Assembly: GCA_019638835.1 (NCBI GenBank)
Contig: JAHBTC010000018.1
Span: 1 to 34,036 of the forward strand
Direction: 5' to 3'
DNA: 34,036 nt
From: Fimbriimonadaceae bacterium
GTDB lineage: Bacteria > Armatimonadota > Fimbriimonadia > Fimbriimonadales > Fimbriimonadaceae
In this document: positions 4,414 through 28,666 of the stretch, piece by piece
Layout of the letters: every line of letters begins with the position of its first letter
Position numbering within the stretch: the stretch's first letter is position 1
The notes under the pieces: model-generated
Database searches by the model: none
What the model saw: only the letters and a program-made list of their open reading frames with translations
Told to the model about the DNA's origin: nothing
Position numbers and translations under genes: made by a program

Positions 4414-5394
4414 ATGAGAAGTTTGATCCTGTTGGCAACCATTGGACTGGCCGCCGCCGCACTTCCGGCGACGATCACCGTGACGAAACCGACGGAGGGC
4501 GACTTCTTGGGTCGGAACAACACCGTCCAGTTCAACATCGTGAATTCCAATCGGGAGGCAACTGTTGTTGTGACCGCCACGTTCACGGCGAACCCCGCGA
4601 TCCAAATCCGTCAAGAGCGTAAGTTCACCCCAGACGGCGATGGCAAGATTAGCGGATCGATCCCCCTCAACTTCTCAGAAAGTTCCCCGCAGGGTGCCTA
4701 CACAATCAACGTGGTGGCGACCGAGCCCAACAACTCGTACAACACCGTTCCGCCAATCAATGTGACGGTGGACGTGCGAAACCCGAAGATCGTTGACTTT
4801 AACCCGATCGACGGCGCGTTCGTAAGCGGAATCGTTCCGATTCGCGCAACGTTAGACGAGGACAACATCAAGGAGTGGCGCGTTCGCGTTGCCTCTGCGG
4901 ACATCCCCAACAATAGCGGTACGACGCGCGATGTGGAAGTGATGTGGGATACGTCGGCGATCTTGACTGACGGGCCCCAAAGCATCGAACTTCGAGTCGA
5001 CGACGAGGCGACCAACTCACTCGTCCGATCCGCAACGGTCACAGTGGATCGACGTCCGCCGACAACGACAATTCTCGCGCCCGCGAACAACTCGACGATT
5101 CCGCCGACCGCATCTGTCGCGGTCGTCATGACGATCTCTGATCAGTTCGCAAATAGCGTCGACAGCACCGGAATCGACGTCATCATTCAGACGCTTGATG
5201 GACGATTCTTCGGTCGGGTGAGCCGACGCAGCGCACGACAAGATGGAAGCCGCGTAGTTTGGACAGGGCGACTACGAAGCAACCGAGTTCTGCCCAACCA
5301 ATTCAAAATTGTCGTTCGAACGGTGGACAAAGCGGGTAACACCGGAACCGTCCAGGAAGTTCTGGTGCGCCTTTCGGGCCGGGGTCGTCGGTAA
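4414..5394 (+). CDS. Secreted Ig-like-domain protein
   Basis: A 326-aa exported protein. The ATG at 4414 is preferred over an in-frame TTG at 4399 because GAGAGG lies 5 nt upstream and the product then begins with a clean signal peptide (MRSLILLATIGLAAAALPA). The mature part reads as two or three beta-sandwich modules of Ig/Big type: TITVTKPTEGDFLG near the start, PKIVDFNPIDGAFVSGIVPI in the middle, and PPTTTILAPANNSTIPPTA in the last third, each opening a new domain. The C-terminal domain ends in a basic tail (SGRGRR). There is no catalytic motif. The following two genes encode an outer-membrane barrel and a secreted caspase-fold protein, suggesting one envelope-located assembly. The function is unknown. 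Confidence 0.75.
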   Translation: MRSLILLATIGLAAAALPATITVTKPTEGDFLGRNNTVQFNIVNSNREATVVVTATFTANPAIQIRQERKFTPDGDGKISGSIPLNFSESSPQGAYTINVVATEPNNSYNTVPPINVTVDVRNPKIVDFNPIDGAFVSGIVPIRATLDEDNIKEWRVRVASADIPNNSGTTRDVEVMWDTSAILTDGPQSIELRVDDEATNSLVRSATVTVDRRPPTTTILAPANNSTIPPTASVAVVMTISDQFANSVDSTGIDVIIQTLDGRFFGRVSRRSARQDGSRVVWTGRLRSNRVLPNQFKIVVRTVDKAGNTGTVQEVLVRLSGRGRR

Positions 5395-5398
5395 GACG

Positions 5399-5416
5399 GC
5401 CTCCGGAGAGGCTTTC
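5399..5416 (+). terminator. Weak hairpin with short T-rich tail between operon genes
   Basis: GCCTC (5399-5403) pairs with GAGGC (5408-5412) around a CGGA loop and is followed by TTTCTC. It lies 4 bp after the Ig-like gene stop. The stem is only 5 bp and the U-tract is interrupted, so it could attenuate rather than end transcription before the barrel gene. Confidence 0.35.
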
Positions 5417-5454
5417 TCGGTACAAAATCAGTCAGTTATTCTAAGGAAACAGCA

Positions 5455-6600
5455 ATGGTAACCAATCAAGCACGGATGCGTTGGATCGCTTTGGCGGTAG
5501 CCAGCACCGCATCGACATTTGCGCTGGGTCAGATTCCTGACCTTTTGAACGCGTTGGATGCGGGCGGGCGCGCGATGGGCGTCGGAGGCGCGTTTGGCGT
5601 CACGGACACCGCGACAACTTCGGTGCTTCAGAATCCCGCATCGCTTGGCTTCGTGAACTCCACCCAAGTTGGCCTCAACTTCCGCAACTTACCGACCAGT
5701 TCCCGCATTGTTGGTGGCAACTTCAACAATCCAGTTTCGATTGGTGATAATCAGTTCGGTAAGCGTGCGGTTTCGCACTTCGGATTTGTCACCCCGATGG
5801 CGGGAGGCGCCTTTGGGATCAGTTACACCATCGGCGGGTATATCAACGACACCCGCACCGGAACAAATTTGGACAACGGATTGCTCCGAGTAGACAACTA
5901 CTCAGAATCGCTTCGAGCCCAGACTGACTTCTTTACGTTCTCGTACGGGCGCAATCAGGGTTCGGTCAACTGGGGATTCGGCGTTGTTCTTGCGAACCAA
6001 TACGTTGCGAACGATCGCTCGTTCGTTTTGATTGACCCGCAAAACAACCAACAGGTCGGTTCTTCTCAAACCAACCTCTCCGGAAACGGGACGGGAATCG
6101 GCGCGGTCGCTGGCGTGCAAATCGTCCCGGAAACTAACCCGAACATTTCCTATGCATTGAGCGTGCGAACGCCGATCAATCTCACCGGGAACGCTTCGAC
6201 AAGTTCGTACATTGATCGGGTACCGGGAAGGGCGTCTTTTGGATTCGTTTTGCGCAATGACGCGGCCGGTCAGGACCAGGACTTCTTGGTTTACGGATTT
6301 CAAGCCGACTATTACTTCGGCGGCCAAGACAACAAGGTTCTTTCCCGTAAGAATCACTTGGTGTTTGGCGCCGGGGCTGAATACAACATGCATCGCTGGA
6401 ACGCTCGTTGGCCAATCCGGGTTGGGTTTGCCGCCGTCCCTAGCGGAGGCAACGGATTTGAAGAGCGCAACGCCTTCACATTCGGACTTGGTTACCGGCC
6501 CAACGGTGGACGGTTCGGCATTGACTTGAACTTCGCTTCACCAGGCGGTGGACCGATAGATATGTCACTCGGCCTTAACTACACACTCAAGGGCAACTGA
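5455..6600 (+). CDS. Outer-membrane beta-barrel protein, PorV/FadL-like
   Basis: A 381-aa predicted outer-membrane protein. It has a signal peptide (WIALAVASTASTFALGQ) and then a motif shared by PorV/PorQ and UPF0164/FadL-type barrels: LDAGGRAMGVGGAFGVTDTA followed by the ASLGF turn, near residues 34-65. The rest alternates hydrophobic and polar residues as in beta strands, is rich in Gly/Asn, and has no helices or long hydrophobic runs. The last strand motif (SLGLNYTLKGN) resembles a barrel end. The ATG is preceded by AAGGAAACAG. It is 4 bp upstream of the caspase-fold gene, so the two are probably translated together. Possible roles are transport of hydrophobic compounds or anchoring of secreted partners; the sequence does not decide. 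Confidence 0.78.
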   Translation: MVTNQARMRWIALAVASTASTFALGQIPDLLNALDAGGRAMGVGGAFGVTDTATTSVLQNPASLGFVNSTQVGLNFRNLPTSSRIVGGNFNNPVSIGDNQFGKRAVSHFGFVTPMAGGAFGISYTIGGYINDTRTGTNLDNGLLRVDNYSESLRAQTDFFTFSYGRNQGSVNWGFGVVLANQYVANDRSFVLIDPQNNQQVGSSQTNLSGNGTGIGAVAGVQIVPETNPNISYALSVRTPINLTGNASTSSYIDRVPGRASFGFVLRNDAAGQDQDFLVYGFQADYYFGGQDNKVLSRKNHLVFGAGAEYNMHRWNARWPIRVGFAAVPSGGNGFEERNAFTFGLGYRPNGGRFGIDLNFASPGGGPIDMSLGLNYTLKGN

Positions 6601-6604
6601 TTTC

Positions 6605-7942
6605 ATGAGGATTCTGCGGACAGTTTTCATCGCGGCGGGGTTGCTCACGGCAGCCTTGGGGGCCGCTCAATCTTGGCGAACGGCTTATGAGCAAGCCTTG
6701 ACAGCGGCGACTCAGAACAAGTGGGCCGAAGCGCGAGAAGGGTTTCTCAATGCGGTCGCGATGCGACCCGAAGATGTCAGCGATGCAACGGTCTTGCCCG
6801 GACCTCCGACGCAGCGAGATGTGTGGCGAGGCGGTTCACCCTACAGCCCTAACTTTGGGGCGGCATACTCGGCGTATCGCGCGGCACTCGCCGAATCCGA
6901 TGATGTTCCGCGACAGGGACTCCTCCAGACTGCGGCCATGGAGTTTGGCACCTTGCTCGACAAGGGACAACGATCAGCCGAAACCTTTTACTTCCTTCAT
7001 CAGATCTATGTGATCCTCAACGACGCCGCCATGCAGCGCGAAGTCGAGGAGCGACGCATGAATGCGCAAGTCATTTCCTGGAAAGTAGACACGTCGTTTC
7101 TTTCTCCCGAAGAAAAGTCTGCCCTAGCCCAATTGACAGGAACGGCTCAGCCGACTCAACCGACCCAACCCATCATTCCGGGCGATCCGACGACGACAAA
7201 CGTCAACCCGACCGTGCCGGTGAACGTGGCTGATCGTGTTCCGGTGAAGCCAAACAAGTACGCACTCGTGATCGGAAACAGCGAATCACTGATGACAAAC
7301 CAAGGGATGGAGTTTGCCACGAACGACGCCATGCTCATCCACGATACGCTGGTTCAACACGCTGGCTATGCCGACGACAACGTTATCGTAATCCAGAACG
7401 GTACGGCGGCCGATATCATGGCGCAGGCCACGGCTCTCGCCGAACGAATGGAGCAGGATGGAACGCTCGTCCTCTTCTTTGCCGGCGCTGGATTCAACAT
7501 TGATGGAAAGGATTATCTGGCCGGAGTGGACGCAACTAGCCCAACCGACACGAGCATGATGGTCGGCAAGGTGGACATGATGCGCCCGTTCATCGCGAAA
7601 GGTACGCAGGTGTTCATGTTCTTTGAAGTGCGTCGCCCCAATATGAGCGGTCGCTACTTTGGACAGGAGATTCCGCTCATTGGTTCGTTCTCACAAATGC
7701 AGGCAACGATTCCCGGTGGAGACGTATACGGTCTTGTTCGAAATGGATCGTTGAACGGAATTTTCGCTCGATCGATGGCGAATATCCTCGCCCTCTACCG
7801 AACGAACCAGGTGCCTCTTTCAGAGTACGGTTGGCAAGTCTTCAACGATATGCGGCGAGGTGGGTCGGCAACGACCGCCGCCGGTGGTTCCATGACTCCA
7901 ACTCTGCCCACCATTCGCAACATGGTCAACGGCAAGTTCTAG
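6605..7942 (+). CDS. Secreted TPR plus caspase-like (C14) protein, apparently catalytically dead
   Basis: A 445-aa exported protein: signal peptide (residues 1-21), TPR-like helices (about 24-150), a Pro/Thr-rich linker (about 178-210), then a caspase/metacaspase-like domain from about 216. The caspase fold is supported by KYALVIGNSESL (216-229), the FATNDAMLIHDTL segment, LVLFFAGAG (288-296) and DGKDYLAGVDAT. In active C14 peptidases the third of these reads like YYSGHG with the catalytic His; here that position is Ala295. The DACRS/N site with the catalytic Cys aligns with FFEVRRP (339-345), placing Val342 where Cys should be. It is therefore likely a pseudo-peptidase. It is 4 bp downstream of the barrel gene and ends before a strong hairpin terminator. 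Family identity is inferred from motif spacing; the role is unknown. Confidence 0.75.
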   Translation: MRILRTVFIAAGLLTAALGAAQSWRTAYEQALTAATQNKWAEAREGFLNAVAMRPEDVSDATVLPGPPTQRDVWRGGSPYSPNFGAAYSAYRAALAESDDVPRQGLLQTAAMEFGTLLDKGQRSAETFYFLHQIYVILNDAAMQREVEERRMNAQVISWKVDTSFLSPEEKSALAQLTGTAQPTQPTQPIIPGDPTTTNVNPTVPVNVADRVPVKPNKYALVIGNSESLMTNQGMEFATNDAMLIHDTLVQHAGYADDNVIVIQNGTAADIMAQATALAERMEQDGTLVLFFAGAGFNIDGKDYLAGVDATSPTDTSMMVGKVDMMRPFIAKGTQVFMFFEVRRPNMSGRYFGQEIPLIGSFSQMQATIPGGDVYGLVRNGSLNGIFARSMANILALYRTNQVPLSEYGWQVFNDMRRGGSATTAAGGSMTPTLPTIRNMVNGKF

Positions 7943-7976
7943 TCGAGGATTTCCGCTCAGAACTACTATCAAACGG

Positions 7977-8015
7977 CCCGTGCTACTCCTAAGGGGTGGC
8001 ACGGGTTGATTATTT
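7977..8015 (+). terminator. Intrinsic terminator after the caspase-like operon
   Basis: CCCGTGC (7977-7983) pairs exactly with GCACGGG (7999-8005), with additional CTCC/GGGG pairing possible inside the loop, followed by the T-rich TTGATTATTT. It starts 35 bp after the stop of the caspase-like gene and ends before the helix-hairpin-helix gene, so it probably closes the 3554-7942 transcript. Confidence 0.7.
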
Positions 8016-8041: not shown

Positions 8042-8917
8042 ATGGGTCAGGGATTCGATGACATTGAACTGACGCCGGAGGATCGTAAGATCCTTCGCTA
8101 TCTCGCGCTTCACTACGGCGCAGAATTCGCGCGACGCCGAGTTGTCGCACCGCAAATTCGCATTCTTCAACTCGATGAGGAGTCCAAACTTCGCGAGGAC
8201 CTGCTGCTCGCTCGACCATCGCTCAAAGTCTTTTTCTCGCAATACGCGTTTGGGCGTCGCGGAAAGGAGCGTGACAGCCTCGTCCCCTGCATGATGCGGA
8301 CGATTGACCAGTTCGACGTGGAATCCGCGCGGTCACAGCGATCCGGCGAGCCTCTTTGGGAAGCCTTCCTTGCGATGGCCGAAGAGCGCAACGTCCGGCC
8401 GAATGAGAACCAGAACCGGGGCGTCATTCAGGGAATGCTTGAGTTGGTGCAAGAGATCTACCGGATTGACGGTGTTGGCAGTATCGCCGGATGGGTGGTC
8501 AATGGTGTCCTCAAGACAGGGCAGTTAGAGCCTCAGTTTATGCGTCTCGTAGATATCCGTGGCTTGGGGCCTAAGAACACGAGCACTTACTTGAGGGATC
8601 TCTCTTACCTCTTTGAATTGAATGACCTAATTCGGCCCGCCCACCGTATCCACGCGCTTACCGTAGATCGGTGGCTCCGGGGATTGGCACCCTATATCTT
8701 CCCCGAGGAAGGTCTCGAAAAGGCGGTGGACTGGGTTCTCGCCGGAAAGGCTCAGAAGTACGCCCGTCGCGCGGGGGTCATCCCTTCCCTCCTCACCATG
8801 GGCGTGACAGGATTTGGGCAATCACAGATTCGACATGGGGAACGGTACGAACATATGAGCGAGATTCTTAGATCCGAAGCGCTCGCTCCCAAGCCAATCG
8901 CAGTCCCTCAAGAGTGA
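8042..8917 (+). CDS. Helix-hairpin-helix DNA-glycosylase-like protein
   Basis: A 291-aa soluble protein. The ATG at 8042 is chosen over upstream in-frame starts because GGGAGAGAGAG directly precedes it and the upstream codons lie in a terminator hairpin. The clearest feature is a helix-hairpin-helix motif, VDIRGLGPKNTSTYLRDL (residues 170-187), similar to the HhH-GPD fold of base-excision glycosylases. Where endonuclease III and relatives have the VDTHV segment with the catalytic Asp, this protein reads RPAHRIHAL (198-206) with no Asp at the expected position, and there is no C-terminal Fe-S cysteine cluster. It may bind DNA without glycosylase activity or belong to a diverged branch. Its last 50 bp overlap the end of coaX on the opposite strand. 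Confidence 0.55.
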   Translation: MGQGFDDIELTPEDRKILRYLALHYGAEFARRRVVAPQIRILQLDEESKLREDLLLARPSLKVFFSQYAFGRRGKERDSLVPCMMRTIDQFDVESARSQRSGEPLWEAFLAMAEERNVRPNENQNRGVIQGMLELVQEIYRIDGVGSIAGWVVNGVLKTGQLEPQFMRLVDIRGLGPKNTSTYLRDLSYLFELNDLIRPAHRIHALTVDRWLRGLAPYIFPEEGLEKAVDWVLAGKAQKYARRAGVIPSLLTMGVTGFGQSQIRHGERYEHMSEILRSEALAPKPIAVPQE

Positions 8918-12924: not shown

Positions 12925-13088
12925 AGGGGGAGAAAAGGTACCCGTTGCCCTCCGACTGGAATCGGGCGGCAACGGCAGTTAGTCCGGGTTCGCCGACGTT
13001 CGATCCTCCGGTACGAGCCATCCCGGCAAAATTGCCTTGAGAATTGTGCGGGTGATCACGGCACAAATGCATGGGAGATACCGAATCG

Positions 13089-13829
13089 ATGCTTCAAATT
13101 GCGCTTGCCCTCATCCTTACTCCGCCGACCCACGGCAACCCACTGGACACGAGCGTCCCGGTGCCTGCCGTATATGAACCAAGCGCCGCTTTCGATCGAC
13201 TGAAGGAGGGGAACGCCCGATTCGCAAATGACCACGCCGCACACCCCCACCAAGACGCCAACCGCCGAAGCACGGTCGCAGGTGGACAGCATCCTTACGC
13301 CGTCGTCGTCACCTGCGCAGATTCACGCCTGTCGCCGGAAATCCTGTTTGACGAGGGGCTCGGCGACTTGTTCGTGATCCGCGTCGCGGGCAACGTGGCA
13401 GATCGGTTTGCGCTGGCTTCCATCGAGTATGCCGTCGGACATCTCGACACCAAACTCATTGCCGTAGTCGGTCACAGCAACTGCGGTGCAGTGAAAGCGG
13501 CCGTAGACGCCGGTTCCATCGCAACTCGGGCGAGCAACAATCACGGCCATGCAACGGACGGAGACGACAACATTGCGGCTCTGGTCGCAGAAATCATGCC
13601 CGCCGTCCGCGCCGCCAAAAACCAACCCGGTGATTTGCTGGGGAACGCCGTGCGTACGAACGTTCAGTTCAGCATCCGCCGGATTCTGGAGCAATCCACT
13701 CCGCTCCGGCGTGGCTTGATGGGAAGCGAGATTGAGTTTGTCGGCGGCGTTTACGACCTGAAGTCGGGCCAAGTGAACTGGACAGAGATCCGTCGAGGCG
13801 CAAATCGGGTCGCGCTTTATACGGACTGA
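13089..13829 (+). CDS. Beta-class carbonic anhydrase, first of a tandem pair, probably exported
   Basis: Carbonic anhydrase interconverts CO2 and bicarbonate using zinc. The beta-class ligands are visible: Cys76 and the Asp78/Arg80 dyad in TCADSR, and His129 and Cys132 in GHSNCG (numbering from the ATG at 13089). That ATG has GGGAG about 12 nt upstream; an ATG at 13071 would add 6 residues but has no ribosome-binding site. The first residues (MLQIALALILTPPTHGNP) look like a short signal peptide, so the enzyme may act outside the cytoplasm. It is divergent from der and is followed after 41 bp by a second anhydrase with a similar core (LKEGNARFA here, LREGNERFA there), consistent with duplication. 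Confidence 0.9.
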   Translation: MLQIALALILTPPTHGNPLDTSVPVPAVYEPSAAFDRLKEGNARFANDHAAHPHQDANRRSTVAGGQHPYAVVVTCADSRLSPEILFDEGLGDLFVIRVAGNVADRFALASIEYAVGHLDTKLIAVVGHSNCGAVKAAVDAGSIATRASNNHGHATDGDDNIAALVAEIMPAVRAAKNQPGDLLGNAVRTNVQFSIRRILEQSTPLRRGLMGSEIEFVGGVYDLKSGQVNWTEIRRGANRVALYTD

Positions 13830-13870
13830 TCAAGAACCATAGTCTGGTAACGTCAAATCGCCGGCCCGCT

Positions 13871-14512
13871 TTGAACCACGATAATCCTCCCCCCGTGCCC
13901 TTGGCCCATGCCGCCGACGTCGTCCTTGAACGACTACGAGAAGGCAATGAGCGATTTGCGACCGGCAATGCGGAACACCCGCGTCAGAGCGCAAACCGGC
14001 GGGAGCAGATGGCCGAAACGCAGAGCCCGTTCGCGGTCGTTTTGACGTGCGTGGATTCCAGAGTGGCCCCAGAGATGGTGTTTGACCAAGGGATGGGCGA
14101 TCTCCTCATCGTGCGCGTGCCAGGAAATTACGTGGACGAGAGTGTTTTGGCGGGGGTTGAGTTCGCCGTGAACATCATGAAGGTGCCTTTAGTTGTCGTT
14201 ATGGGGCACAGCAACTGTGGCGCAATGCAACTCACGCTCGCCGACGTAACCCACATGTCCGAGCCTGTACCGGGGTTACGGGAAAGTCGCTCCTTCGGAA
14301 TTGTCTTCCGAAAGTTATCTCCAGCCGTACGCTCAACGGCGCACCCGTCCGATGAAGGGCACCTCCGTCGAGCGACCCAAGCGAACGTGGCGAACAGCCT
14401 TCGCGCGCTCCTTGCGGAGTCATTTTCCTTGGCTGAGGCTGCACGCCGAGGGCAGACAAAGTTCGTGGGCGGATACTTTGATATCGCATCCGGCGTAGTC
14501 GAGTGGCTGTAG
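13871..14512 (+). CDS. Beta-class carbonic anhydrase, second of a tandem pair
   Basis: A 213-aa beta-carbonic anhydrase paralogous to its upstream neighbour. Zinc ligands and dyad: Cys60, Asp62 and Arg64 in TCVDSR, and His113/Cys116 in GHSNCG. The order LREGNERFATGNAEHPRQSANRR, here split as LREGNERFATGN then AEHPRQSANRR, matches the core of the first copy. It lacks the hydrophobic leader of that copy and is probably cytoplasmic. The start is uncertain: TTG at 13871 or GTG at 13895, neither with a good ribosome-binding site. The pair may supply bicarbonate on both sides of the membrane. It converges on the ECF sigma gene, with a hairpin between them. Confidence 0.9.
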   Translation: MNHDNPPPVPLAHAADVVLERLREGNERFATGNAEHPRQSANRREQMAETQSPFAVVLTCVDSRVAPEMVFDQGMGDLLIVRVPGNYVDESVLAGVEFAVNIMKVPLVVVMGHSNCGAMQLTLADVTHMSEPVPGLRESRSFGIVFRKLSPAVRSTAHPSDEGHLRRATQANVANSLRALLAESFSLAEAARRGQTKFVGGYFDIASGVVEWL

Positions 14513-17506: not shown

Positions 17507-18348
17507 CTACAAACCCACAGATGCTGCGGCACAACCAGCTTCGTTGTAAAAGGCAAGACAGCTTGTGCATGGATTCTCTTGCCCCCCTCCGCATAGTCTC
17601 ACACAATAATCGTCCAAATATTTGCAACCCCCTTGACGAATCTTGTCACATAACACTTTACACCACTTTCGCTGCGCCTTTACGAAGATCCCGCGACGTC
17701 TTGAGCGCATGCACATGTCTTGACATGCAGCACTGCCAGGATCTGTAAATGATCCAAATGGAAACTCAGGGCTTATTGCGCATAGAGGCGGTATTATAAT
17801 TGGGACCGGAGGCGGCGGTGTGAGGCGCGGTGGGGTAAGATTGCTATCGTCACAAATGATCGTGGAACCAGAGTACGCTTACAGGCCTCACATATTTCTC
17901 TATTTGAAAGTCTGAGGCCCTCTTTATATCGCAAATACATGTAACAATCAAAGAATTTATGAGCTTTGCCTAGCCCCGAGGCATCACCGATAAGCACCGG
18001 CGATTCATTGCAATATCCATATGCAGTTTCTTCAGGCCACAGCGGATCCACTGTCATCCACCTGGACAGATCAGCCCGGTATGTCCTTGCCTGCACAAAT
18101 AACATGGTCAGAGTATCTCGGAAGTAGCCAAGCGTGCCCACGAAGCCCCACGGGCTTGGGTTCGTTCCTGTGCTCGTCCTGACCTCGCCAAACGGCCAGC
18201 ACTTGGTGGTCGAAGTCACGTTGCCGGACGCGTCAGTGGTCTTGATTACGCTTCCAAGCGTGTCAGCGACATAGCGGGTCACGGTGCCACCACGGTTCTC
18301 TTGAACCATTCGTCCGTTCACCGTCGCATATGTCACTGACATCGGCAT
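17507..18348 (-). pseudogene. Rhs core with C-terminal tip 2, apparently frameshifted
   Basis: The first part (18348 to about 17880) opens MPMSVTYATVNGRMVQENRG, carries the WPFG.VRTSTGTNPS segment and the core ARTYRADLSRWMTVDPLW (residues 87-104), and ends in GDASGL, a variant of the DPSGL junction after which Rhs tips begin. The tip starts AHKFFDCYMYLRYKEG and has CEAC at 153-156. In that frame translation runs into arginine-rich sequence and stops at 17794. A shift of -1 in 17800-17880 instead opens a frame through a proline-rich stretch (LTPPRLTPPPPVP) and a Cys-rich region (DMC, WCKVLC, CKYLDDYCVRLC, PCTSC) to TAG at 17507, 4 bp before the next gene. It is either a disrupted toxin or a sequence error. 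Confidence 0.72.
18003..18348 (-). repeat. Rhs-core direct repeat, copy B
   Basis: About 345 bp coding for the Rhs core of module 2. It is closely similar at DNA level to 19221-19566, including long identical runs, and both copies stop abruptly at the ATG CCG ATG start. Similarity ends again just after the DPLWP codons, where tips diverge. Such repeats are natural sites for homologous exchange of tips. Confidence 0.8.
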
Positions 18349-18843: not shown

Positions 18844-19566
18844 TTACCTAAGGATGAGAAAGCAGCAACTTTTACAGTATGATTCCGCAAATGGGGGCCA
18901 GAGTTTTACAAAGGTAGGCATAGACAAGCCACAGCCAGTGCCTACTGTATTTGCCCAGATATCTCGCCAGTCACAATCGCTCATCGGAGGGCACTCCGAC
19001 GCCCACGGAGAAAGCAACGCGCACCATGGCAAGTACGCAGTGAGTAAGCATGTGGCCATGCAATGTCCAATGTCATCATTCGGCCAGGGATAGATATCTC
19101 TCGCATATAAGTTGTATAGGTAGTAGGCGGCGGCAGCACAACTCAAAAGTCCAGCGGTGATCAATGCAATTAATGGGAGCAGCCCCAGCAGGCCGGAAGG
19201 ATCAGAGAGAAGTGCAGGCCGATTGGCTACGTACGCGTAAACGCATTCATCCGGCCACAGCGGATCAACCGTCATCCACCTCGACAGATCGGCTCGATAC
19301 GTCCTCGCTCTTACATAGAGCCTCGTCAGCGTGTCCTCGAAGTAACCAAGTGTGCCAACGAAGCCCCAAGAGCTCGGGTTAGTGCCGGTACTCGTTCTGA
19401 CCCCGCCAAACGGCCAATACTTGGTCGTCGAAGTCACGTTGCCTGAAGCATCAAGAGTTTTAATGACACTTCCAAGAGTGTCAGCCACATAATGAGTCAC
19501 GACTCCACCACGGTTCTCTTGAACCATCCGTCCATTCACCGTCGCATACGTCACTGACATCGGCAT
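18844..19566 (-). CDS. Rhs core with C-terminal tip 1 (hydrophobic, Cys-rich)
   Basis: A 240-aa product: Rhs core (residues 1-126) with VTYATVNGRMVQENRGG, YVADTLGSVIKTLDASGNVT, ARTYRADLSRWMTVDPLWPD (87-106) and the junction SDPSGL (121-126), then a 114-residue tip. The tip opens with a hydrophobic segment (LGLLPLIALITAGLLSCAAA) and continues with paired cysteines (CMATC, WC, EC, DC, GC, CKSCC). There is no N-terminal Rhs shell, secretion domain or signal peptide, so as it stands the module is an orphan tip that would need to recombine with a full-length rhs gene elsewhere. It starts 14 bp after the gene at 19581 and is followed within 5 bp by a small membrane protein. Tip activity is unknown. 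Confidence 0.8.
   Translation of the reverse strand: MPMSVTYATVNGRMVQENRGGVVTHYVADTLGSVIKTLDASGNVTSTTKYWPFGGVRTSTGTNPSSWGFVGTLGYFEDTLTRLYVRARTYRADLSRWMTVDPLWPDECVYAYVANRPALLSDPSGLLGLLPLIALITAGLLSCAAAAYYLYNLYARDIYPWPNDDIGHCMATCLLTAYLPWCALLSPWASECPPMSDCDWRDIWANTVGTGCGLSMPTFVKLWPPFAESYCKSCCFLILR
19221..19566 (-). repeat. Rhs-core direct repeat, copy A
   Basis: The partner of 18003-18348 in the same orientation, 1218 bp away. Many differences are at third codon positions, so both copies appear to have been under protein-level selection as parts of working rhs genes before or since duplication. Confidence 0.8.
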
Positions 19567-27326: not shown

Positions 27327-27848
27327 ATGGCTGAAGTTTTATTGTTGAACGCAAACTTTGAACCGCTCAACGTCTGCAACATGCGGCGTGCGATGAGCCT
27401 CGTGTTGCTTGGCAAGGCGGAAGTGCTTCAAGAGTCAGAGTTGCCAGTGCGAACGAGTCAATGTGACTTGCCTGCGCCATCGGTCGTTCGAATGCGCTAT
27501 CAAGTTCGTCGGCCGATGCCAGAACTCCGCCTTTCGCGTCACTCCATTCTCACCCGTGACCAGTACGAGTGTCAGTACTGCAGTTCAAAGCGCGACTTGA
27601 CGTTAGACCACGTCATTCCTCGTTGGCAAGGGGGAGGCAACACCTGGGAGAACTTGGTTACGTGCTGCCGGAGGTGCAACTTGAAGAAGGGGGACAAGAC
27701 CCCAAATCAGGCGCACATGAAACTGAAGCGCCAGCCTCGGCGGCCCCACTATGTGCCGTACCTCTCTTTGCAGAAGTACGTGCGGGCTCGCCAGAACCAT
27801 GATTGGCACTTCTATCTGCCTACGTTTGACGCGTTCGATATCAATTAA
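27327..27848 (+). CDS. HNH endonuclease family protein
   Basis: A 173-aa protein with a compact HNH nuclease fold. Zinc knuckle cysteines are in CQYC (residues 82-85) and CCRRC (113-117); the catalytic motif is [11 protein letters not shown] (about 93-103), with the HNH Asn in TWENLVTCC and a second basic segment NLKKGDKTP. The N-terminal 70 residues ([20 protein letters not shown]) match the stand-alone HNH proteins common in many bacteria, whose role is not settled. The ribosome-binding site AGGAGG is ideal. There is no neighbouring methyltransferase, integrase or intron reverse transcriptase, so it is not part of an evident restriction or mobile system. Its end overlaps the convergent pterin-synthase-like gene by 4 bp. 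Confidence 0.92.
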
Positions 27849-28666
27849 CGAGGTCGCTCAACCGTAAACGCGCTGCGGGCGGTTTCGTACAGTCTCACTC
27901 TTTCCAGACGTGCGGGCAAGTGCCCTTCGAGTTGATCGTAGATCGCCTGAGCTACCACTTCGCTCGTCGTGCATTTGCCCTGAAGTTCGGGCAAGTCAAG
28001 GTCAAGGTTACGGTGGTCGTAGCGCTCAATGACTCGCTCTTCGATCACCTGATCCAGTTCATCAAGGGGACAGATCATTCCGGTTGTCGCATCTGGCTGT
28101 CCGCTCACCGTGACTTCTAAGACGTAGTTGTGACCGTGACCATGGGGGCGGTTACACTTCCCAAACAGCCTTTCGTTCTCGGCAGCGGAGAGGGTGTGAG
28201 CATGGAGACGGTGGCTCGCGGCAAACTCAAACGTACGGGTGAGGGTCAACATTTCGGGGGTCCATTCGCCGTAAAGAAGCGGCGTTTCGTCAAGGCGCAA
28301 ATGAGTCAGTTCGACTGCGCCGGGTAAGTCACGTAAAGACTCGTAGAAGTACATGAGCAGGTTTTCAAGAGTAGGTGAAACGTTCGTGAATGCTTCGACT
28401 TCATCGTTGATACTCTTCTGGTCAAACCGCTGGACAACGCGCTCCTGCAACGTATCGTCAATCCACTTGATATTGACCACCATCCCATTCTCAGGGTCGG
28501 TGGTACCTCGGGTGCTCACCCAAAGGACGTAGTTGTGACCGTGATTGTACGGTGACGCCCAATTGCCGAATCGCACACGGTTTTCTTGCTCAGAAAGGTC
28601 GGCGTCCCAATACCGATGCCCGGCACTGAACGAAACCTTCCTCGTGAGTGTGACCTCAGACATCAT
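27845..28666 (-). CDS. Two-domain 6-pyruvoyltetrahydropterin synthase / QueD-like protein
   Basis: A 273-aa fusion of two PTPS/QueD domains. Family members convert dihydroneopterin triphosphate to 6-pyruvoyltetrahydropterin or, as QueD, to carboxytetrahydropterin for queuosine. C-terminal domain (about 140-273) is complete: Zn ligands His152, His177 and His179, catalytic Cys171 in [14 protein letters not shown], Asp217-His218 in RYDHRNLD, and Glu261 in LYETARS. N-terminal domain (about 1-135) keeps Zn ligands His17, His42 and His44 and Glu127, but Trp36 replaces the Cys and Gln83 the His, so it looks inactive. The start overlaps the permease stop, tying it to the nucleoside importer operon. 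QueD and PTPS cannot be told apart with certainty here. Confidence 0.9.

Follow-up and report, generated by a model that had tools for sequence, protein, structure and literature searches.

The window, i.e., the whole 34,036-nucleotide stretch of DNA analysed here, originates from the Armatimonadota, order Fimbriimonadales. Records related to it come from MAGs and genomes of this order of Armatimonadota. This report is concerned with three genes of the window and the features which belong to them:

4414-5394, + strand: gene of an Ig-like exported protein, 326 aa, an open reading frame with a signal-like N-terminus
5455-6600, + strand: gene of a predicted FadL/PorV-superfamily outer-membrane barrel, 381 aa, about 14 strands
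6605-7942, + strand: gene of an exported protein with a helical (TPR-like) part and a pseudo-caspase, 445 aa
7487-7489, + strand: codon of Ala295, the catalytic-His column in an alignment of 41 orthologues
7628-7633, + strand: codons of Val342 and Arg343, the two possible registers of the catalytic-Cys column
7974-8008, + strand: terminator-like hairpin of 16 pairs with a T-rich tail, 3' of the third gene

All three products possess an N-terminal hydrophobic, signal-like segment. The intergenic gaps are 60 bp between the Ig-like and barrel genes and 4 bp between the barrel and caspase genes. Open reading frames, gaps and N-termini agree with the preliminary description of three consecutive, tightly spaced genes for exported products. 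It also had the operon closed by a terminator. The hairpin with its T-rich tail is present, but a scan of the region finds no more terminator-like sites near the trio than in shuffled sequence, and a transcription terminator behind the third gene is only likely.

Other parts of the window are recorded for their own sake. The gene at 8048-8917 (+ strand), which follows the trio in 35 of 51 loci, has no Pfam match; its product contains a GLGPKNTSTYLRDL stretch which resembles a helix-hairpin-helix and is possibly divergent DNA-repair glycosylase-like. At 13071-14512 (+ strand) a tandem pair of beta-carbonic anhydrase genes is located, and at 27845-28666 (- strand) a 6-pyruvoyl tetrahydropterin synthase, in which two stretches of the one protein match PTPS. 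Tandem open reading frames at 17794-18348 and 18844-19566 (- strand) are almost identical in their N-terminal part, which resembles the end of an Rhs/YD-repeat core. Their C-terminal tips differ, small open reading frames lie between them and neither has a Pfam match; they look like orphan polymorphic-toxin tips.

The Ig-like protein has sub-threshold matches to Big_13 and Big_7, and its profile finds the Ig-like chain 2yn3 in the PDB at 1.2e-5. The second protein is modeled (mean pLDDT 87) as a barrel whose N-terminal hatch is of the FadL type and has an NPA motif (N60-P61-A62). The best structural matches are the transporters FadL, TodX and TbuX (Z 28-33, with EcFadL at Z 33 over 327 residues); a subunit of the Bacteroidota BAM complex scores Z 28-29 and PorV about 26. 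Across 39 barrel orthologues NCBIfam assigns PorV_fam (NF033709, the PorV/PorQ family) to all 39, PorVQ2 to 15 and FadL to one. The best orthologue attains E 4.2e-13 against NF033709, whereas the window barrel with 35.1 bits is not over the curated cut-off of 90. The model predicts a FadL-superfamily barrel with 14 strands and an N-terminal hatch, and the earlier designation as PorV/FadL-like is borne out by family matches and structure alike. Fold, NPA hatch motif and 14-strand layout are common to the FadL, PorV and PorVQ2 barrels; below the PorV_fam cut-off, the window barrel appears as a separate Armatimonadota branch.

Does the barrel serve the display of proteins at the surface, or is it a channel? 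The components of type IX secretion bear on this point. For SprA/Sov no match over cut-off was obtained in 41 genomes, with a control set equally silent, so the sensitivity of this search is unproven. Sub-cut-off matches in 40 of the 41 genomes comprise only about 95 residues (positions about 592-690) far below the cut-off, and their identity as SprA was rejected; we take this stretch to be the N-domain of secretins. A PorU-type C25 domain was not found in the window's own genome, an absence which rests on sub-cut-off scores as the control set was silent here, too; 3 of 41 relatives have one. A C-terminal sorting domain is absent from the window's own genome and matches over cut-off in 3 of 21 relatives. 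The GldM/PorM profile matched neither the genomes nor the control. Hence the type IX core (SprA, PorU-type C25) was not found in the window's own genome, with controls likewise silent. Lipobox-like strings are sporadic (2 of 41 caspase, 3 of 39 barrel and 2 of 36 Ig-like sequences). A lipobox, a sorting domain or a known outer-membrane translocon by which the caspase-fold protein would reach the surface was not found, and this protein may stay in the periplasm.

These data feed a first alternative: the barrel would be a channel of the FadL type through which hydrophobic compounds pass, with the Ig-like protein and the pseudo-caspase as periplasmic partners which would gate it or accept its cargo, without any surface display. 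The structural ranking of FadL, TodX and TbuX ahead of PorV, the plain N-terminal signals with only sporadic lipobox-like strings and the missing surface-export system all favor it. Yet NCBIfam places the family nearest to PorV_fam and PorVQ2, with FadL assigned only once, and we know of no dedicated Ig-like plus caspase pair for FadL transporters. We consider this alternative somewhat unlikely, though a serious contender.

The third protein passes the Pfam C14 cut-off (E 1.3e-7, 32 bits, cut-off 21.4) and is the sole Pfam C14 protein in the window's own genome. Its AlphaFold model (mean pLDDT 90) comprises a helical region at about 22-180, a low-confidence linker at 184-202 and a caspase fold at 213-445. 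The helical region is modeled as hairpins; TPR matches are weak (E 0.34-0.46) and no family match is significant. The caspase domain model matches the MALT1 paracaspase with Z about 23 over 208 residues at 16% identity.

The catalytic residues are gone. The column of the catalytic His, where the preliminary description had placed Ala295, does hold this Ala and has His in none of 41 aligned orthologues; it is mostly Val or Ala and otherwise varied. For the Cys column the earlier assignment to Val342 agrees with the MALT1 alignment, whereas closer active relatives of the same order point to Arg343: the profile comparison with active Fimbriimonadales caspases (99.5% probability, E 6.6e-23) aligns their DACR with QVNR. 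Position 343 is Asn, Asp, Ser, Arg, His or Pro and never Cys in 41 orthologues. Position 342 is Cys in two of the 41, in which the His column holds Thr and Tyr. Thus, in either register a His-Cys pair is absent from all 41 orthologues, and no alternative conserved His-Cys pair emerges. Because the window protein has Cys neither at 342 nor at 343, the description as a dead caspase stands whichever register is chosen.

Other residues are retained. Asp303, Arg344, Phe352 and Gly353 are invariant in the 41 orthologues, Gln or Glu is conserved at 341, and the S1-type Asp (Asp241) is kept in 35. Further, dN/dS of the third gene is 0.03-0.05 in close pairs (pair G043/G019 left out, as its orientation had been read wrongly), which denotes strong purifying selection. 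Selection and the conserved positions 303, 341, 344, 352 and 353 could be taken to mean that the fold catalyses with other residues as an unconventional active enzyme. This is highly improbable, considering the varied occupancy of 295 and 343 and the lack of any conserved nucleophile at or near the site in the 41 orthologues. Judged by its catalytic residues, the third protein is a caspase-fold member of C14 which is not of the active-peptidase type. From sequence it fits the definition of a pseudo-orthocaspase, i.e., a prokaryotic p20 domain with a substituted dyad.

How firmly are the three genes linked? Genome contigs were searched with an alignment as query; a single-protein query gave no matches. 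Among the Fimbriimonadales genomes tallied, 81 have the caspase gene, 77 the barrel gene and 76 both. The caspase gene, with a single orthologue in each genome that has it, occurs in most of the window's own family and in families f3-f5, and is absent from family f2. By script, the order Ig-like, barrel, caspase on one strand is kept in 48 of 51 inspected caspase loci. The trio is in fact together in 50 of the 51, counting locus L068, where only a start was mis-called, and L046 (genome G007), where an N-run separates barrel and caspase; the notion that the three genes rarely co-occur does not hold. The only true exception is L055 (G021). An 842-aa open reading frame in G007, at first sight a natural barrel-caspase fusion, was rejected as a product of this N-run. 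Median gaps across loci are 25 bp and 5 bp.

The flanks are less constant. The HAD gene upstream is found in 29, the downstream gene in 35 and coaX in 32 of 51 loci. Because flanking genes are so often syntenic, some of the linkage is plain vertical inheritance, and one may argue that three independent envelope proteins merely share an operon and form no complex. The caspase gene does survive alone: in genera g31 (G032, G050) and g20 (G021) barrel and Ig-like genes were not found, and in G032 and G050 it sits between the HAD gene and the usual downstream gene, an arrangement that looks like a trio from which the other two members were deleted. However, genus g5 has an intact trio amid different neighbors with coaX upstream, and family f22 has one with unrelated flanks. 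From the less constant HAD and downstream genes and from the different neighbors around the intact trio of g5 we conclude that the link exceeds general synteny. Further, Fimbriimonadales offer no clear case of a barrel without a caspase; G177, 77% complete, is the sole candidate. Independence of the three proteins is therefore quite improbable in our estimation. Nevertheless, co-transcription and co-inheritance do not prove a complex, and the persistence of the caspase in g31 and g20 shows that it is able to dispense with the barrel and Ig-like genes. Some Fimbriimonadales genomes are devoid of all three genes; thus the unit is not essential to the order.

The best barrel match beyond the order comes from G129 of family f22 (9e-37). 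G129 and G133 of this family, which are distant Armatimonadota, have the same gene order: an Ig-like protein (1168-1241 aa) is followed by a barrel and by a long protein, exported and up to 1377-1519 aa in length, whose C-terminal caspase has an intact His-Cys dyad (FFAGHG with FDACRS, and YFAGHG with YDACRN). The genes around these trios bear no relation to the Fimbriimonadales flanks. G132 has this long protein too, in two pieces on separate contigs. Ig-like proteins of f3 and f4 (718-816 aa) are intermediate in length between those of f22 and those of f1 and f5 (about 330 aa).

Genome G063 of family f4 has a short dead-type locus (L077), its caspase part cut by a contig end, and, elsewhere, a second barrel followed by a long protein with the N-terminal domain common to the dead type (5.4e-7). 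A separate contig carries an intact caspase end with GHG and DCCR, which is probably the C-terminus of this long protein, although there is no join between the two contigs. Where other families of Armatimonadota gave weaker barrel matches, none of the further loci read had an adjoining caspase motif except G063 C294. G094 of family f11 has two Ig-barrel pairs (L160, L167) without an adjoining caspase; a sulfatase gene follows one, and genes for 339-aa and 924-aa proteins without a caspase match follow the other.

In the tree the dead caspases form one clade (support 100/98), and the simplest reading is a single dyad loss on its stem. The caspases of f22 and f4 have long branches, and a placement was not obtained. 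The f22 long caspase was therefore not accepted as the direct ancestor, and we say only that the dead form would descend from, or be paralogous to, the longer exported TPR-caspase with a His-Cys dyad in other Armatimonadota. The dead domain matches the f22 long form weakly (0.0012) and is nearer by profile to separate active caspases of the Fimbriimonadales. Several Fimbriimonadales also encode separate proteins, about 600-1200 aa long, in which the caspase dyad is intact (loci L081-L090).

There is good support for describing the third product as a non-catalytic caspase-fold protein linked to a PorV/FadL-like barrel. The reading which we prefer, and to which we give an even chance, goes further: an outer-membrane complex whose one-time peptidase subunit now serves as a non-catalytic binding or scaffold subunit. 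Here complex, location, ligand binding and the direction of evolution are what we infer. The three genes would encode parts of one complex, and the barrel in the outer membrane would hold the exported caspase-fold and Ig-like proteins. The caspase fold would no longer cut; its kept pocket (Asp241, Gln/Glu341, Arg344, Asp303, Phe352-Gly353) and the helical domain may bind a partner or ligand, which would make the pseudo-caspase an anchoring or scaffold subunit. The peptidase step would have been lost on the branch to the Fimbriimonadales proteins and the assembly kept. For a physical complex of the trio products as such, chances are about even. The early suggestion of a binding or scaffold protein remains the best available idea for a protein that lost its dyad yet is preserved, with the role itself only presumed.

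Known systems offer a precedent for such barrels. In Porphyromonas PorV tethers the caspase-fold PorU (PMC5562754), and PorP-like barrels hold type B cargo (PMC9143113). Retention of exported proteins at the outer membrane is thus a known function of such barrels. As in the trio, PorV-PorU combines a FadL-superfamily outer-membrane barrel with an exported caspase-fold protein. Yet PorU, in which the Cys is active, belongs to the C25 gingipain-type sortases, whereas the fold of the trio is C14/paracaspase-like and, by its residues, dead, and neither a SprA nor a C25 gene was found in the window's genome. Because SprA, C25 and a sorting domain were not found there, the likeness is at most a functional analogy. 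In one respect the distant resemblance first noted has become closer, as another Armatimonadota family has the trio order with an intact caspase. One may envisage a PorV-PorU-like attachment or presentation complex of the outer membrane, with an evolutionary origin apart from type IX secretion and a C14 caspase which was ancestrally proteolytic and is now a non-catalytic receptor in Fimbriimonadales; we deem this unlikely. The comparison bears on whether pairs of an outer-membrane barrel and a caspase-fold protein arose more than once.

The closest solved fold, the MALT1 paracaspase, is a eukaryotic cytoplasmic active protease, and no functional inference is drawn from it. A literature search within one library found no paper joining Fimbriimonas with a caspase and, among the papers listed, none reporting a PorV plus caspase pair in Armatimonadota, a phylum whose envelope biology is almost unstudied.

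Close in kind are the bacterial pseudo-orthocaspases, which, like the Fimbriimonadales family, have a p20 fold without a His-Cys dyad; TPRs are sometimes attached to them (PMC6426788). Most reports of them concern Cyanobacteria and Rhizobiales, where the sites are Tyr-Ser, Tyr-Asn or Phe-Ser. In Synechococcus and Synechocystis, too, a pseudo-orthocaspase is the only orthocaspase gene; Armatimonadetes or Fimbriimonas are not mentioned (PMC6426788). The Fimbriimonadales family differs in its sites (Val/Ala and Asn/Asp/Ser), its signal-like N-terminus and its N-terminal helical domain. Most descriptions of bacterial pseudo-caspases concern single genes for which a partner is not known. The present one is exported and belongs to a three-gene envelope unit that is fixed across an order, and elsewhere in the phylum counterparts with an intact dyad have the same arrangement. 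Together, dead and intact forms give a natural before-and-after comparison for the question of what becomes of a caspase fold that has ceased to cut. Unlike the reported pseudo-orthocaspases, this family is locked to genes for an Ig-like protein and a barrel.
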